DNA from: Leptolyngbya sp. KIOST-1
GTDB lineage: Bacteria; Cyanobacteriota; Cyanobacteriia; Phormidesmidales; Phormidesmidaceae
Direction: 5' to 3'
NCBI RefSeq assembly: GCF_000763385.1
Contig: NZ_JQFA01000002.1
Span: forward strand, 2,108,001 to 2,172,000
DNA: 64,000 nucleotides
The notes beneath the pieces were generated by a model. It did not search any database. It was not told the origin of the DNA and was given only the letters and a program-made list of their open reading frames with translations. Numbering within the stretch: the first letter of the stretch is position 1; each line of letters starts with the position of its first letter. Below are positions 962 to 16,195 of the stretch, piece after piece. The translations under genes were made by a program, and so were the position numbers.

Positions 962-3502
962 TCATTTGGTGGTCATGACGTAGACCCCATTCCAGTCCTG
1001 GGGCGGCGGTTGCTGCTGATACTGCCGCGCCCGATTCAGGTGTACGGCGACGGCTTTGTCGTCGGGGCGCATCTGCTGGGCCTGCTCGAACAGACGCAGG
1101 GCCTCGTCAAAGCGCAGGCTGGTATAGGCGCTGCGGGCCCTGGCGTAGAGGTCTAAGAAGGCTTCGGTGCCGGGGCTGAGGGGAACGTCGCGCTTGTCGA
1201 TCAGCTCGTAGAGGCCGACGGCCTGCTGTTTGCCCTTGACCTGGGTGCGGTCGAGCTCGCGCACCCAAATTTTGTCGGCGCAGAGGGCGTAGGTGTACTC
1301 GCTGAGGACGATATCGCAGCCGTATTCTTTGGTGACGCCCTCCAGGCGGGAGCTGAGGTTGACCCCGTCGCCAATCACGGTGTACTCCATTTTGCGCTGG
1401 GAGCCAATGTTGCCCGACACCACCTCGCCCGAGCTAATGCCGATGCCGATGCGGATTTCGGGCTGGCCCAGGGCGCCCCGCTCGGCGTTGAACTGGGCCA
1501 GCCGCCGCCGCATGTCGAGGGCGCTCTGCACCGCGGCCCAGGCGTGGTTGCTGAGGGGCAGCGGCGCTCCAAATACCGCCATCAGGGCGTCGCCAATGAA
1601 CTTGTCGAGGGTGCCCTCGAAGTTAAACACCGACTCCACCATGGTTTCAAAGTAGGCGTTGAGCATTTCCACCACTTTGTCGGCTTCCAGGTCCTCGGTC
1701 AGGGTGGTGTAGCCGCGAATGTCGGAAAACAGCACGGTGACGTCTTTGCGCTCCCCCTTCATCAGCAGATCGTCGCCCAGGGCCATCACCTGCTCGGCCA
1801 CGCCGGGGGTCATATAGCGGTAGAGGGTGCTCTTCATTCGCTTTTCCTGGCTGATGTCTTCCAGCACCAGCAGGCCCCCCAGCACGCCGCCCTCGGGGTT
1901 GTTGAGGGGGTTGACGGTGAGGTTGATGCTGCGCTCGATGCGCTGCACCAGGTTGGCGGGCACGGGCGGGGCGGTGGGATCGCCCCAGGGTCGGTAGATT
2001 TCGGGGGCGGCGGGATCGCTCAGGGCCAACTCAGAGACGGGGTCGAGGCCGGTGCCGGGGCCGGGGGCTACGGCCACCCGCAGGCTCTGCTCGGGGACGT
2101 AGTGGCGGGCGCCGTGCTGGAGGCTGTCTTCGAGGCGAAAGCGCAGGCTCTCGATTGGGATCGCGTCCCAAACGGGGCGGTGTAGCAGGGCCGACTGCCA
2201 GCGATCGCGGATGGTGCGGCCGTGGTCGCGCTCCTCGGGGCAGCCGAGCAGCTCCAGGGCGGCGTCGTTGATGGTGACAATCCGCCCCTCCATATCGGTG
2301 GAAATCACCGCATCGGAGAGGCTCTGCAGCATGTCTTTCTGGTACTGTTTCTCGACCAGCACGCTCTCAAACAGCTTGGCATTCTCCAGCGCTACCCCCG
2401 CCTGAATGTTGAAGGCCCGCATGAAGGCCTCATCGGAGCTGGTAAAGGTGCCCTGGGTCTTGTTGATCAGCTGGGTGACGGCGATCAGCTTGCCGCCTGA
2501 GTCGAACACGGGCATACAGAGGATGGTGCGGGTGGTGTAGCCGGTGCGCTTGTCGGCGTCGGGGTTAAAGCGGGGATCCTGGTAGGCATCGGGAATGTTC
2601 AGCACCTCGCCCGTGGTGGCCACATGGCCGACAATGCCGCTGGTGATGGGGCTGCGCAGCTCCACCAGCGATTTGCCGTCCCCCGACTTCACCTTGGACC
2701 ACAGGTCGCCGCTCTCTTCATCGATCAGCCACAGGGTGCTGCGATCGGCCTGCATCAGCTGGCGGGCCTCTTCCATCACCGATTGCAGGGTTTTCTCCAG
2801 ATCTAAGCTCTGCTCCAGGGAGGAGATTGCCTTTAGCAGGGCTGCTACACCCTTCTGGTTGCGGGCGGCCACATAAAAAGAGTTGCAGCTCTCCAGAATC
2901 ACCCCCAGCGATTCGGCAAACTCCTTAAAGTGGCGCTCGTCCTGATCGTCGAAGGGGGTGTGGTTGAGCTTGTTGAGCAGCTGCACCACCGCCACAATGC
3001 TGTTGCTTTTTTTGCTCAGCACCGGCATGCAGAGAATGCTGCGGGTGCGATAGCCGTGCTTCTGGTCGTAGGTGCTGTCGAAGCGATCGTCGGCGTAGGC
3101 GTCGGGAATGTTCAGGGGCGTCAGGTTGGTGGCCACATAGCCCGAGATCCCCTTGCCCATGGGGACCCGAATTTCGAGCGATCGCTCCCCATCCCCCTGG
3201 GCAATTTTCGACCACAGCTCCTGCTTTTCGTGATCCACCATAAAAATAGTGGTGCGCTCGGCCTGGAGGATCTGGCCAATCTTGAGGGTAAAGGCCTCCA
3301 GAATTTGCTCCAGCATGATCTCCAACGACTCGTTGTTGATCATGTCGATGGCGCGCAAAAAATGCTCGAACTCTGCCGTGATCTGGTCCAGCAGATTGAT
3401 GAACTGGGGCGTCGGCAGGTCGCGCACCCGGTTGGTGAGGGAACTGTGCTGGTTGACCAGAGACAGCGCGGTGATCATGCTGCGGTCGATCTGAGATGCC
3501 AT
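962..3502 (-). CDS. Adenylate cyclase with tandem GAF, PAS and class III cyclase domains (CyaB1-like)
   Basis: Class III nucleotidyl cyclase making cAMP from ATP. Domains in order are GAF-A (about residues 60-200), GAF-B (about 245-390), PAS with a Pro-rich insertion (about 415-560), the catalytic domain (about 620-790) and a C-terminal TPR-like stretch. Metal-binding aspartates are visible in LFSDIRGYT and FIGDALMAVFG. The substrate pair is Lys-Thr (RKMEYT), as in Anabaena CyaB1, which points to ATP rather than GTP. Both GAF domains carry a recognisable NK...F..DE motif, and GAF domains of this class bind cyclic nucleotides, so cAMP feedback is likely (inference). The reading frame opens at 3652, but I chose ATG 3502 (MASQIDRSMI, 846 aa) because the upstream 50 residues look non-homologous and an AGGGA sits just before 3502. 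Confidence 0.93.
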   Translation of the reverse strand: MASQIDRSMITALSLVNQHSSLTNRVRDLPTPQFINLLDQITAEFEHFLRAIDMINNESLEIMLEQILEAFTLKIGQILQAERTTIFMVDHEKQELWSKIAQGDGERSLEIRVPMGKGISGYVATNLTPLNIPDAYADDRFDSTYDQKHGYRTRSILCMPVLSKKSNSIVAVVQLLNKLNHTPFDDQDERHFKEFAESLGVILESCNSFYVAARNQKGVAALLKAISSLEQSLDLEKTLQSVMEEARQLMQADRSTLWLIDEESGDLWSKVKSGDGKSLVELRSPITSGIVGHVATTGEVLNIPDAYQDPRFNPDADKRTGYTTRTILCMPVFDSGGKLIAVTQLINKTQGTFTSSDEAFMRAFNIQAGVALENAKLFESVLVEKQYQKDMLQSLSDAVISTDMEGRIVTINDAALELLGCPEERDHGRTIRDRWQSALLHRPVWDAIPIESLRFRLEDSLQHGARHYVPEQSLRVAVAPGPGTGLDPVSELALSDPAAPEIYRPWGDPTAPPVPANLVQRIERSINLTVNPLNNPEGGVLGGLLVLEDISQEKRMKSTLYRYMTPGVAEQVMALGDDLLMKGERKDVTVLFSDIRGYTTLTEDLEADKVVEMLNAYFETMVESVFNFEGTLDKFIGDALMAVFGAPLPLSNHAWAAVQSALDMRRRLAQFNAERGALGQPEIRIGIGISSGEVVSGNIGSQRKMEYTVIGDGVNLSSRLEGVTKEYGCDIVLSEYTYALCADKIWVRELDRTQVKGKQQAVGLYELIDKRDVPLSPGTEAFLDLYARARSAYTSLRFDEALRLFEQAQQMRPDDKAVAVHLNRARQYQQQPPPQDWNGVYVMTTK

Positions 3503-3797
3503 AGGATCCCTACTCAAGCGTGGCAGATGGGAGTACAAGCAGTGGGCGCAGTCAGCCGCCTGGGTTGAGTTGAAGATCGCACAGGGGGGAGCCTTTCCCG
3601 TGTCGGCGGGTACAGGATCTGCAGCTGGAAGCCACACTTCCCCCTGCGTCATGACGTTGTTAAAGGTTACGAAGGAACCGACTCAGCGCCAATCCCCCTA
3701 ACTACTCTAACCGTATCCTCCAGGGCTTAGGACAGAACGTTGCGATTTGCACAGAATGCTCAGCCCCTGGCTATGCCATAGCATACCCAGCCCTTCC

Positions 3798-4562
3798 CTA
3801 GGAATGCGCTTCGCTCAGCCCAGCTGAGCCAAACTCGGCCTCCAGAAAAGCAATGATTTCTCCCCAGGCGGCGTCGCTGGCGGCCGGATCGTAGCGGTAG
3901 CCATCGTCGCGCATGAAGGTATGGTTGGCCGAATAGATCAGCGTCTTAGGCTCAATGCCGGCGGTGGCCAGGGTCTTGAGCAGGGTGTCGCGCCCTTCGG
4001 CAGGCACGTGGGGATCCTGGTCGCCAAAAATAAATAGCAGCCGAGCCGAGATGTCGCCCAACCGCTCCAGGGTGTCGGCTTTGTCTCGCCCTAGCTTGCC
4101 GCTGTGAATGCCCGTCGGATAGCAACACACCGCTGCTTTTACCCCAGGGTTGAGAGCCGCACGACAGGCCAGATGACCTCCAATGCAAAAACCCAGGGTG
4201 GCAATTTGGCCGGGGGCGACGGTGGCATCGTTGTGTAGCCAGTCGAGGACGGCTGCGGCATCGGCGTCGTGGTGGGCAACTTCGGTGCGTCGGGCGGCAT
4301 CGTTGCCCCGTAGGCGACCCACGTCGTTGGGTTCAATCACGGTGCCGGGGGGTTCCAGGCGGTGAAAGATCTCTGGGGCGACGACGACATAGCCGTAGCC
4401 CGCCAGGCGATCGGCCAGGCGCACCATGGGGCCACCCAGCTGGTAAATGTCGGAATAGAACAAAATGCCGGGATACTGACCGGGTACCGTCGGTTTGGCC
4501 ATGTAGAGGCGCATTAGGCTGTCGTCTACGGTCAGACCCACGTCACGGCGCTGAATTTGCAC
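3798..4562 (-). CDS. Dienelactone hydrolase family protein
   Basis: Alpha/beta-hydrolase of the dienelactone hydrolase family, 254 aa, without a signal peptide and so presumably cytoplasmic. The catalytic triad is readable: nucleophile Cys in GFCIGG, Asp in GDQDPHVP and His in SANHTFMRD. The YSDIYQLGGPMVRLADRLA stretch and GYVVVAPEIFHR are usual for the family. The natural substrate in cyanobacteria is unknown; family members hydrolyse lactones or esters. It ends 295 nt before the cyclase start on the same strand and is not clearly part of an operon. Stop overlaps nothing. Function beyond hydrolase is not inferred. Confidence 0.9.
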   Translation of the reverse strand: MQIQRRDVGLTVDDSLMRLYMAKPTVPGQYPGILFYSDIYQLGGPMVRLADRLAGYGYVVVAPEIFHRLEPPGTVIEPNDVGRLRGNDAARRTEVAHHDADAAAVLDWLHNDATVAPGQIATLGFCIGGHLACRAALNPGVKAAVCCYPTGIHSGKLGRDKADTLERLGDISARLLFIFGDQDPHVPAEGRDTLLKTLATAGIEPKTLIYSANHTFMRDDGYRYDPAASDAAWGEIIAFLEAEFGSAGLSEAHS

Positions 4563-13810: not shown

Positions 13811-15316
13811 TCAACTTAAATCGCTAAGGTCGTCAAGGCCTCGGAGCCTATCATCGTCAGCACTGTCGGGCTCAGGGCTGTTGAGCAGAGCGTCTAAATC
13901 CAGACTGTCGGTGTCGAAACTGGACTCCAGCCCAAACGGATCGTCCTCGGTAGCTTCGATATTGCTATCCAGAAGGTTGTCAAAACCGATGTCATCGGAT
14001 GTTGCGGGCGGGGCGGTATTGTCCAGGTCAAAGGCGGGGTCTGTGCCAAATGGGTCTTCCTGGGGGGGGAGGGGATCAGGCTCTAAGCCAAATGGGTCGG
14101 TTGGGGAGCTGTCGGGGGCGGGGATGGACTCCAGGTTTAGCGCTTCAGTATTCTCCAGATCCCTGTCCAGACCAGAGTCGAAGCTGACGTCTGATGTCAG
14201 CCCTGATGCTATCTCTGGGGAAAATTCTGGAGCCACCTCAGGGAATGGCGCAGCGGGTTCGATCGCAGCCTCAAGCTCTAGATCTAGACCTGCATCCTCG
14301 CTGGTGACCAGGCTGGCGGCGGCGATCGCCGTGTCGAGGTCAAACTCACCGGGGTCACTGACTGAACCAGCGGCAGCCTCGGGCGAGGCTTGCAGCAGCT
14401 GCAGCCGGGCCTCATAGCTCTGCTCTAGCTCCTGGGTCCGCTGGGTCAGTTCGTCCTGGTAGTGCTCAATCTTTTCGGCCAGCTTTTGCTCGTATTCCTC
14501 GCGCAGGCTGGTCTCTATCTCGCGCCGCAGGTTCAGCTCCAGCTCCTCGGCGGAGGGCTCGCTCGCTGCGGGGGAACCCGCGCCCCGGGCCAGTTGCAGC
14601 TGAGCGTCGTAGGTGGCCTGCATCTGGGCCAGTCGCTGCTCCATCTCATCCTGGTACTGGGCAACGCGCTCGGCCAGGCGCTGGTCATACTCCGCCTGGA
14701 GCCGAGCCTCTACCTCAGCCAGATCGCCAGCCCCGGCACGGGCTTCAGGGGTGGGCTCCGGCACCAGGTTGCCCAACGGGATAGCGCCACTGTCTGCGGC
14801 CAGGCGAGCCTGGGTCTCATCCTGGTAGTGGGCGATCGCCTCTGCCAGGCGCTGCTCGTACTCTTGCTGGGCCTGCGATCGCGCTTCGACCAGTTTCTCT
14901 TGGAGGTGCTGCTCGTAGGCCTGCTGGATTTTGGTGGCGGCCTCTTTGAGACGGGTTTCGTACTGTTTGCGAATGCGTTGCTCAATGCTGCTGTCCGATT
15001 CGCCAGAGGCGTTGCCCGACAGAGCCTGGCGGGCCTGAAACTCGGCCTCTAGCTGGCTGCGCTGCTCATCGTACTGAGTCTGGTAGCGCTCCATGCGTTC
15101 CGCCAGCTGGGCTTCGTAGTCGTTTTGCAGCTGGCGGGTGGCATCGCGCAGTCGCTGCTCGTGCTCCTGGGCTAGCTCGTCCTGCCGCTGCTGGCTCTGC
15201 TGCAACGCCTCACTCAGCTCATTCACCTGGCCCTGGCGCAGGTAGTAGCCCACAATGACCGCCAGAAGTAGGCCAATTAAAGCAGCAACAATAAGACCTT
15301 GCGTGAGTTGAGGCAT
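13811..15316 (-). CDS. Membrane-anchored coiled-coil protein with acidic DPFG-repeat tail
   Basis: 501 aa. Residues about 9-29 form one transmembrane helix (LIVAALIGLLLAVIVGYYL). From about 30 to 300 the protein is highly charged coiled coil in which a unit of about 36 residues recurs four times, recognisable by YEQRLAEAIAHYQDE, YDQRLAERVAQYQDE and YEQKLAEKIEHYQDE. The last 170 residues are acidic and probably disordered, with DPFG or EDPFG occurring four times. I use ATG 15316 (MPQLTQG) rather than 15337, because GGGGA precedes the former at proper spacing. I do not recognise a named family. The layout, one membrane anchor, a long rod and a short-motif tail, suggests a tether or scaffold at the membrane (inference). 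Confidence 0.75.
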   Translation of the reverse strand: MPQLTQGLIVAALIGLLLAVIVGYYLRQGQVNELSEALQQSQQRQDELAQEHEQRLRDATRQLQNDYEAQLAERMERYQTQYDEQRSQLEAEFQARQALSGNASGESDSSIEQRIRKQYETRLKEAATKIQQAYEQHLQEKLVEARSQAQQEYEQRLAEAIAHYQDETQARLAADSGAIPLGNLVPEPTPEARAGAGDLAEVEARLQAEYDQRLAERVAQYQDEMEQRLAQMQATYDAQLQLARGAGSPAASEPSAEELELNLRREIETSLREEYEQKLAEKIEHYQDELTQRTQELEQSYEARLQLLQASPEAAAGSVSDPGEFDLDTAIAAASLVTSEDAGLDLELEAAIEPAAPFPEVAPEFSPEIASGLTSDVSFDSGLDRDLENTEALNLESIPAPDSSPTDPFGLEPDPLPPQEDPFGTDPAFDLDNTAPPATSDDIGFDNLLDSNIEATEDDPFGLESSFDTDSLDLDALLNSPEPDSADDDRLRGLDDLSDLS

Positions 15317-15727
15317 CGTGTTTTCCCCTGTAGACATTAAAAGCCGAGCCGCAGATCATTCACGCTTGAGAGGCCAAAAACGGCGCCTCCCCCGCTTTAG
15401 CAGCTGCTAAATAGTGACGATCAATGATATACGCTGCATCTGGTTTGGGATCTCTAAACTTTCCCCGCCGCCTGGTCCGGCACAGGGGCCGAGAGCGACT
15501 TTGAGGGCGTGTTATTCATTCTGGGTGACAGCCTCCTTGATGTCAGTCCCTCCGATTCCCCGCCAGCCGTTTCGATGACAGATTATGTCCTTGGTCGGCG
15601 TCAGCCCTGCGGTCCCTTGGGCGCATCCTCTACAATGAAGCTAACTTTACCGGTCTCGCCAGTGGGCACACCGATCGGTTCACTGACCAGGATTCCGTCG
15701 TTCCTCTGCCCTATTTCTCCGTTGCGT
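15317..15727. other. Intergenic region between divergent coiled-coil gene and rsfS
   Basis: The rsfS frame stays open back to 15509, but that upstream part has no family-like residues and an in-frame ATG at 15728 fits the RsfS N-terminus better. A TACAAT at about 15631 could be a -10 box for rsfS, though no good -35 is at the right distance. Nothing else is recognised. Confidence 0.4.
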
Positions 15728-16195
15728 ATGACCTATTCTCCCCACCGTCAGCCTGCCCTGCACAAGGCCGTTGCGCCAGAGAGCAACACCCCTGCTTCCC
15801 AGCCCAACCCGGATGAGGACGGTGCCCTCCAACTGGCCTACACCATTGCCGCTGCCGCTGACGAGCGCAAAGCGGGCAACATCACGATTTTGCAGGTGGG
15901 AGATGTGTCGTATCTGGCCGACTATTTTGTGGTGGCGACCGGCTTTTCGGCGGTACAGGTGCGCGCTATCACCCGCTCTATTGAGGCGGCTCTCGAAACC
16001 GACTACAATCGGCGTCCCCTACGGGTTGAAGGCCAGGGCGAGGGCAACTGGATCGTGATGGACTACGGCGAAGTCATTGCCCACATCTTTATGCCCGAGG
16101 CCCGTGACTACTACGATCTAGAAGCCTTTTGGGGCCACGCCAACCAAATCGTTTACCAGCCTTCCGGACCCCATTTCGCCGGTGGCCAGGGCTAA
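15728..16195 (+). CDS. rsfS: Ribosome silencing factor RsfS (iojap family)
   Basis: 155 aa. RsfS binds ribosomal protein L14 and blocks joining of the 50S and 30S subunits when nutrients are short. The diagnostic text is DVSYLADYFVVATGFSAVQVRAI, seen as ADYFVVATG, followed by EGNWIVMDYGEVIAHIFMPEARDYYDLEAFWG, both classic for iojap/YbeB (about 105-150 aa). The first 35 residues are a cyanobacterial extension. It heads a same-strand set with the CGLD27-like and asparaginase genes (gaps 153 and 65 nt), an order I recall as common in cyanobacteria. Confidence 0.95.
   Translation: MTYSPHRQPALHKAVAPESNTPASQPNPDEDGALQLAYTIAAAADERKAGNITILQVGDVSYLADYFVVATGFSAVQVRAITRSIEAALETDYNRRPLRVEGQGEGNWIVMDYGEVIAHIFMPEARDYYDLEAFWGHANQIVYQPSGPHFAGGQG

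Follow-up and report, generated by a model that had tools for sequence, protein, structure and literature searches.

The gene and its locus

The DNA analysed, here called the window, is a stretch of 64,000 nucleotides of Leptolyngbya sp. KIOST-1. The gene under study (13811..15316) lies on the minus strand, runs from an ATG at 15316 to a stop codon at 13811-13813, and encodes a 501-aa protein in which a membrane helix is followed by coils and an acidic tail. All coordinates given below for parts of this gene refer to the minus strand. This is a real protein-coding frame, as shown by the open reading frame, the alignment of homologs, and dN/dS values of 0.00–0.32 per region, found in all regions with dS > 0 in eight homolog pairs, in several of which dS is saturated.

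Translation was taken from the second ATG (MPQ...). An alternative ATG is found upstream at 15337, giving a longer frame of 508 aa. In the alignment, homologs of the genus begin at MPQ or MTP, and G007 lacks a Met at the position of the upstream ATG. The sequence AGGGG is located 8 bases 5' of the ATG at 15316. The interval reported in the earlier note coincides with the 501-aa frame read from the second ATG; the strand, which was left unspecified there, is the minus one. Scans for promoters (2 sites, against 0.8 +/- 1.1 by chance) and terminators (1, against 2.5 by chance) were uninformative.

The divergent neighbour is rsfS (15509..16195, plus strand), encoding the ribosomal silencing factor, which serves as a synteny landmark. 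The RsfS domain covers only residues 112-208 of this open reading frame, so the true rsfS start may be further in. Lengths of open reading frames in the homolog and locus listings were measured from stop to stop.

Membrane helix and coil units

One N-terminal membrane helix, as proposed from the sequence, is found at residues ~7-26 (GLIVAALIGLLLAVIVGYYL; 15239..15298, range set by eye), and is followed by an Arg. The helix is evident in the sequence and in alignment A1, which includes the first 170 aa of 18/30 proteins. An Arg follows the membrane helix and nothing charged precedes it; by the positive-inside rule, the coil therefore probably faces the cytosol.

Alignment A2 and the AlphaFold2 model take in 27/30 proteins. 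L027, devoid of such a tail, L029, cut by the end of the locus, and L030, which is HEAT-tailed, were left out. Four long helices are predicted, mostly with ten-residue pLDDT means of 82-95; over the whole protein, the mean pLDDT is 67.7 and the pTM 0.26. Helix 1 (residues 3-100; 15017..15310) takes in the membrane segment and runs into coil 1. Helix 2 (residues 109-176; 14789..14992) includes the conserved EQRIRKQYETRLKEAATKIQQAYEQHL stretch. Helix 3 spans residues 194-245 (14582..14737), and helix 4, which includes YEQKLAEKIEHYQDELTQRTQELEQ, residues 256-309 (14390..14551). Three parts are conserved across homologs: the stretch made up of membrane helix and coil 1, the remaining coils, and the far C-terminal end. 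When dN is compared among four regions, the first of these parts shows the lowest value in 7/8 homolog pairs, one of them being a tie.

Four coiled-coil units of about 36 residues had been described in the earlier note. Four diverged units sharing a Y-x-x-x-L-A-E core are indeed present, at residues 67 (helix 1), 153 (helix 2), 210 (helix 3), and 275 (helix 4), and a weaker relative is found at 119. The likeness of the units exceeds what composition would give, as each of the ten pairwise scores is reached by 0-2/500 shuffles; the score of the 119/153 pair is inflated, the windows chosen having ten residues in common. The coil profile derived from A1 matches the protein again at residues ~199-279 (E 2.8e-10) and ~265-321 (E 2.0e-10). 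Core sites, shuffle scores and profile matches together indicate that the repeated units are real. Their spacing is uneven (86, 57 and 65 residues), no 36-residue tandem arrangement is seen, and the core recurs with a repeat length of 11 or ~15 residues.

For coil 1, all 30 proteins compared give a best core period of 3.65-3.68 (power 5.5-11.0, against <=1.0 at 3.5), and pooling 26 proteins in register gives a period of 3.67 (power 10.5, against 0.1 at 3.5). A heptad coiled coil is ruled out for coil 1 by this period, which corresponds to 11 residues. Peaks in the other coils of the window protein fall at 3.78-3.79 (coil 2), 3.72 (coil 3), and 3.74 (coil 4, where the periodicity is weak, 7/500 shuffles reaching the peak), closer to the value of 3.75 expected for 15-residue repeats. 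Consequently, a single uniform hendecad rod is too simple a description. Repeats of 11 and 15 residues accompany right-handed coiling in the stalks of rotary ATPases, as described in PMC6131620, and by this precedent the rod is predicted to be a right-handed or nearly straight coiled coil. The b subunit of ATP synthase offers a similar layout, in which the membrane helix leads into a right-handed coil of 11-residue repeats (PMC6131620). It differs from the window protein in repeats, tail, and locus, and a weak match to b' is found in 1/27 members (E 0.0062).

The acidic tail and the conserved C-terminus

Residues 310-487 (13856..14389) form an acidic tail. Most of it is predicted to be disordered (ten-residue pLDDT means of 33-53 in the AlphaFold2 model), except for a short helix at 327-336. 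The description of the protein as a membrane-tethered rod with an acidic, mostly disordered tail is thus borne out by prediction. Residues 313-501 carry a net charge of -48. Among homologs, the longest tails are about ten times the length of the shortest, and charge density hardly changes: the charge measures -0.19 to -0.34 per residue in 32/33 tails of 50-516 aa, the exception being L031 (44 aa, -0.05 per residue). Four of 37 tails, for which the boundary rule gave under 40 aa, were left out of this survey. G019, from the same genus, is 264 aa long and lacks such a tail.

The DPFG tetrapeptide occurs three times, at residues 407-410 (14087..14098), 421-424 (14045..14056), and 459-462 (13931..13942), and not four times as previously counted. 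Three copies were reached in 0/100,000 shuffles of the tail composition. Some 4-mer occurs three times in 73/3,000 shuffles, so that the significance is modest once any tetrapeptide is allowed. Among 30 proteins, DPFG is found in two, the window protein and G002 (2 copies), and it is missing from 28/29 homologs, same-genus species included. Close homologs lacking the motif are what the earlier note had itself named as the finding that would refute its view of DPFG repeats as docking motifs of a partner-recruiting hub. In spite of the shuffle result, that view is scarcely tenable, and DPFG was rejected as a functional motif because of its lack of conservation. By comparison of homologs, the repeated DPFG is best classed as a local quirk rather than a working part of the protein. 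The tail may still have a docking role, in which case the candidate elements would be the conserved ones at the C-terminal end.

This conserved end consists of the sequence LDLDALLN (residues 472-479; 13880..13903), an element multiplied in long-tailed homologs, followed by DDLLDxLDDLSxLS-COOH, which ends the protein (residues 485-501, ...DDDRLRGLDDLSDLS-COOH; 13814..13864). In A2 (27/30 proteins) F467, L474, L477, L478, D496, L500 and S501 are nearly invariant. The terminal pattern D[DLEF]-x(0,4)-L-[ST]-COOH fits 21/30 proteins; among the nine missing it is L029, cut by the locus end. A C-terminal helix (488-500) is predicted by AlphaFold2 at low confidence (pLDDT ~50). The degenerate C-terminal pattern occurs once in the genome carrying the window, with no second copy hinting at a partner set.

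Eight long tails contain 3 to 6 LDLxxLL elements (6 in L009, 5 in L015, 3-5 in six others), against <=0.03 expected in shuffles. The tails of L009 and L015 contain 192-bp (64-aa) tandem repeats, present in 4.5 and 4.4 copies, respectively. In contrast, no tandem DNA repeat was found in the window gene at score 30.

An acidic repeat tail, preceded by a membrane helix and a coil and with no HEAT match, is found also in two genomes of family f36 (L097, L143). The L143 protein (L143:2364-4241, minus strand) has a short coil and ends in LDFDTLLEDDK. Counted by eye, its tail includes eight acidic repeats of the EEDFTPSLELEEESSFDDGDLEFAGE type, nearly identical and 25-26 residues long, and no Pfam match was obtained for this protein at E up to 0.001.

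Distribution and the rsfS locus

Searches with the whole protein identified relatives in 36/57 sampled genomes, that of the window included. In 388 sampled genomes of the larger class, up to nine candidates per genome being scored, the N-terminal profile matched 83 genomes. These correspond to 55/60 of the same taxonomic family and 28 others, many of them weak matches. In the cyanobacterial family the gene usually resides at a fixed locus adjoining rsfS, and conservation extends to the anchor, the rod, and the terminal motif. Four of the five misses in the same family also lack rsfS in the assembly, so the locus itself is probably absent there; the fifth (G171) has rsfS and no match.

The gene diverges from rsfS in 24/26 named window-type loci, L048 and L050 being the exceptions. 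The genes located behind rsfS in the window, presumably encoding CGLD27-like and asparaginase-like proteins, are conserved in most of these loci. The shared locus argues for orthology, not for function, since a promoter region in common with a ribosome-silencing factor says little.

In G135 (L096:6497-6847, plus strand), a short frame of 117 aa beside rsfS encodes the membrane helix and coil 1 without the tail. Frames of 106-129 aa match also in G103, G309, G384, G078 and G246. A class II ribonucleotide reductase gene adjoins the locus. In the metagenome-assembled genome of Leptolyngbya sp. DLM2.Bin27 this gene (L043:7537-11847, minus strand) measures 1437 codons, against 732 in the window, and carries an intein (Intein_splicing, E 5e-11; LAGLIDADG_3, E 2.3e-29).

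Comparison with known families

No Pfam or NCBIfam model matches the window protein at or above cut-off, and no chain of a solved structure matches it at E up to 0.1, in line with the earlier impression that no named scaffold covers it. Profile A1 gave seven chance-level matches among solved chains (best E 0.2), plasmid sequences contained no relatives at E up to 1e-5, and a literature search, in which subscription papers fell mostly outside coverage, returned no report that could be connected with the family. By these comparisons, the protein belongs to an unnamed cyanobacterial family.

The commonest matches among 27 members are to thylo_ssl2009 (12/27), DUF4709 (13/27), and DUF2508 (10/27); coils often give such hits. 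For the ssl2009 family thylakoid membrane protein (NF053524), members match at E up to 0.1 (best 0.0014), and the window protein scores 17.2 bits, below the cut-off of 58. DUF4709 (PF15821) matches coil segments of members at E up to 0.1 (best 2.2e-6); the window protein scores 15.5 bits, below the cut-off of 27. L031, the sole member among the 27 known to pass that cut-off, reaches 28.5 bits overall, none of its individual stretches passing by itself. The DUF4709 match probably reflects a general resemblance of coils.

ZapG (YhcB, PF06295) also features an N-terminal membrane helix and a cytosolic coil. The window protein has the same layout, the cytosolic side being deduced from the Arg. ZapG is presumably shorter, and without an acidic tail. 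The window protein falls below the family cut-off, with no match to ZapG-like models (PF06295 / NF008672) at E up to 1. Sub-threshold matches at E up to 0.01 were found in 4/10 distant relatives scanned, the best being L106 (26.5 bits, E 7.2e-6, cut-off 33.5). According to PMC8163987, ZapG is conserved among gamma-proteobacteria and missing from other groups; it is described there as a coiled-coil tetramer, proposed to run along the membrane, which binds FtsI and RodZ.

Syc2039 of Synechococcus elongatus, a protein of ~280 aa with an N-terminal membrane helix, is reported to form networks in vivo, and its mutant to be impaired in cytokinesis (PMC7002697). As described in PMC7002697, Syc2039 and other cyanobacterial coiled-coil-rich proteins resemble the window protein in having a membrane helix and a coil. 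Profile A1 had no match at E up to 10 in G063, possibly an S. elongatus genome, a negative which shows little. SepT (All2460) is likewise a membrane-anchored, coiled-coil-rich cyanobacterial protein. Two membrane helices and matches to SMC and TerB-C domains are described for it (PMC10653889). In contrast, the window protein has one membrane helix, and no SMC or TerB-C match in Pfam or NCBIfam at E up to 1. ZapG and Syc2039 may be regarded as the nearest working analogues, and by analogy make a role in division plausible.

A putative membrane tether, and alternative readings

In the best-supported reading, which has about even odds, the protein is a single-pass membrane tether or scaffold. The single helix would anchor the protein to a membrane, with the coil in the cytosol. 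The rod, probably an oligomer assembled as a right-handed 11-residue coiled coil, would hold the long tail, polyacidic and disordered, at a distance from the membrane, and the acidic C-terminal helix would dock one partner, which would thereby be concentrated at the membrane. Docking is proposed because the C-terminal end is conserved; no partner for the tail was found in this analysis. Counting against the reading are the nine proteins outside the terminal pattern, the lack of such a tail in G019, the low model confidence of the C-terminal helix, and the departure of coils 2-4 from the period of 3.67. Tail length and the number of LDLxxLLN elements, both variable among species, may tune reach and valence. 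If the tether reading is true, the family would represent a compact bacterial scaffold, in which anchor, rod, and docking helix stay fixed, and reach and valence evolve through the number of tail repeats.

A protein so built could alternatively act as a cell-division or cytoskeletal factor, serving at the membrane as an attachment point for the divisome or for a network of filaments, as ZapG or Syc2039 may do. The gross architecture is the same, distant relatives give the sub-threshold ZapG-like matches noted above, and both the phenotype and the networks of Syc2039 (PMC7002697) and the tetrameric coil of ZapG along the membrane (PMC8163987) would fit such a role. Still, the window protein itself has no ZapG match, ZapG is described as confined to gamma-proteobacteria (PMC8163987), and no division gene is seen beside the window gene, where neighbours other than rsfS are provisionally named; the missing A1 match in G063 is of little weight. 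On balance, a division role is unlikely. Similarly improbable is that the tail works as an electrostatic brush, or as a condensate-forming spacer, which would separate membranes or complexes and be selected for charge rather than for motif, with nothing specific docked. In favour are the charge density, kept nearly constant over a tenfold range of lengths, and the rates of change: among the regions, dN peaks in the tail in 7/8 pairs, and dN/dS in 5/8. The extreme C-terminus does not behave accordingly, as D496, L500 and S501 are nearly invariant in A2, and the last 40 residues have dN/dS values below those of the tail in 7/8 pairs (24 residues belong to both regions, and several pairs are saturated in dS).

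The rod itself can be read differently. Helices with 11-residue periodicity lie on the membrane surface in apolipoproteins and alpha-synuclein, and the helices of the window protein might do the same instead of pairing with each other. The periodicity of coil 1 agrees with this, as do sub-threshold Apolipoprotein matches in 2/27 members (L031, 21.3 bits against 90). The conserved hydrophobic strip is, however, narrow (13/67 columns of coil 1), and the remainder is rich in Glu, Gln and Arg. Pairing of coils fits these features better, and a location on the membrane surface is very unlikely.

HEAT-tailed relatives

The N-terminal module of the putative tether is found also in unnamed cyanobacterial proteins which combine membrane helix, coil, and HEAT repeats (profile A3; e.g. 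L094, L105, L147, L148). Profile A3 matches the window gene over profile positions 4-94 (E 2.6e-18). With up to six candidates scored per genome, A3 identified matches in 123/388 genomes at E up to 1e-10, some through the HEAT part or the N-terminus alone. HEAT_2 was detected (E 4.6e-9 to 5.7e-17) in 6/10 distant relatives carrying the membrane-coil module. These proteins end in HEAT repeats, whereas the window protein has additional coil units and the acidic tail, and no HEAT match at E up to 1. Its own genome (G000) gave generic HEAT matches only, none above 37 bits, whereas six genomes carrying such a protein score 71-149 bits. Twenty same-genus genomes were searched for a separate HEAT protein that might act as a partner in Nodosilinea, and the idea was discarded, as none reached family level (best 45.3 bits, against the same 71-149).

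Some HEAT-tailed genes reside at the rsfS locus (L089, L105, L107), others are not beside rsfS (L091, L093, L094, L095, L098, L103). In a tree of the N-terminal module, L089, L105 and L107 fall on the window-type side of a branch with support 88/86. The 21 rows labelled as HEAT-less make up one side of a branch with weak support (75/78, found in 73% of 200 bootstrap trees). The tree includes 33 chosen rows of <=115 aa, has long branches, and 8/30 of its branches are starred.

Split pairs were observed in G179 (L144) and G337 (L145). As in the window, a membrane-coil protein with an acidic tail is encoded there, but its 3' end is overlapped by a HEAT open frame of 138-143 codons, on the same strand and in another frame; no such HEAT neighbour is found at the window locus. 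Overlapping genes and one frameshifted protein are both possible explanations of this arrangement.

The window protein may descend from, or be a sister to, a membrane-coil-HEAT protein, the HEAT module being gone. In the simplest reading, HEAT repeats are ancestral, and several lineages have either lost them or come to encode them apart; alternatively, they may have been gained repeatedly. A fuller version, offered tentatively and on the whole doubtful, is that an ancestral membrane-coil-HEAT protein has been taken apart, and persists whole, as two frames that overlap, or, in Nodosilineaceae, without HEAT repeats and with an acidic tail instead, whose repeated LDLxxLLN elements and fixed C-terminal helix would make up a docking arm of tunable valence on a right-handed coiled-coil rod. 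If this is true, the family would form a class of its own among bacterial membrane scaffolds. One-protein, split-pair, and HEAT-less forms suggest where the partner may be sought.

Tandem arrangements were noted at two loci. Beside rsfS in L088 (6862-8739, plus strand), HEAT-less and HEAT-tailed genes lie in tandem, possibly as the record of a duplication preceding the loss of HEAT repeats. In G337, two nearly identical N-terminal membrane-coil modules lie in tandem on the minus strand (L145:4401-4874 and 3060-4130), the first in a short frame of 158 aa, which suggests a partial duplication.
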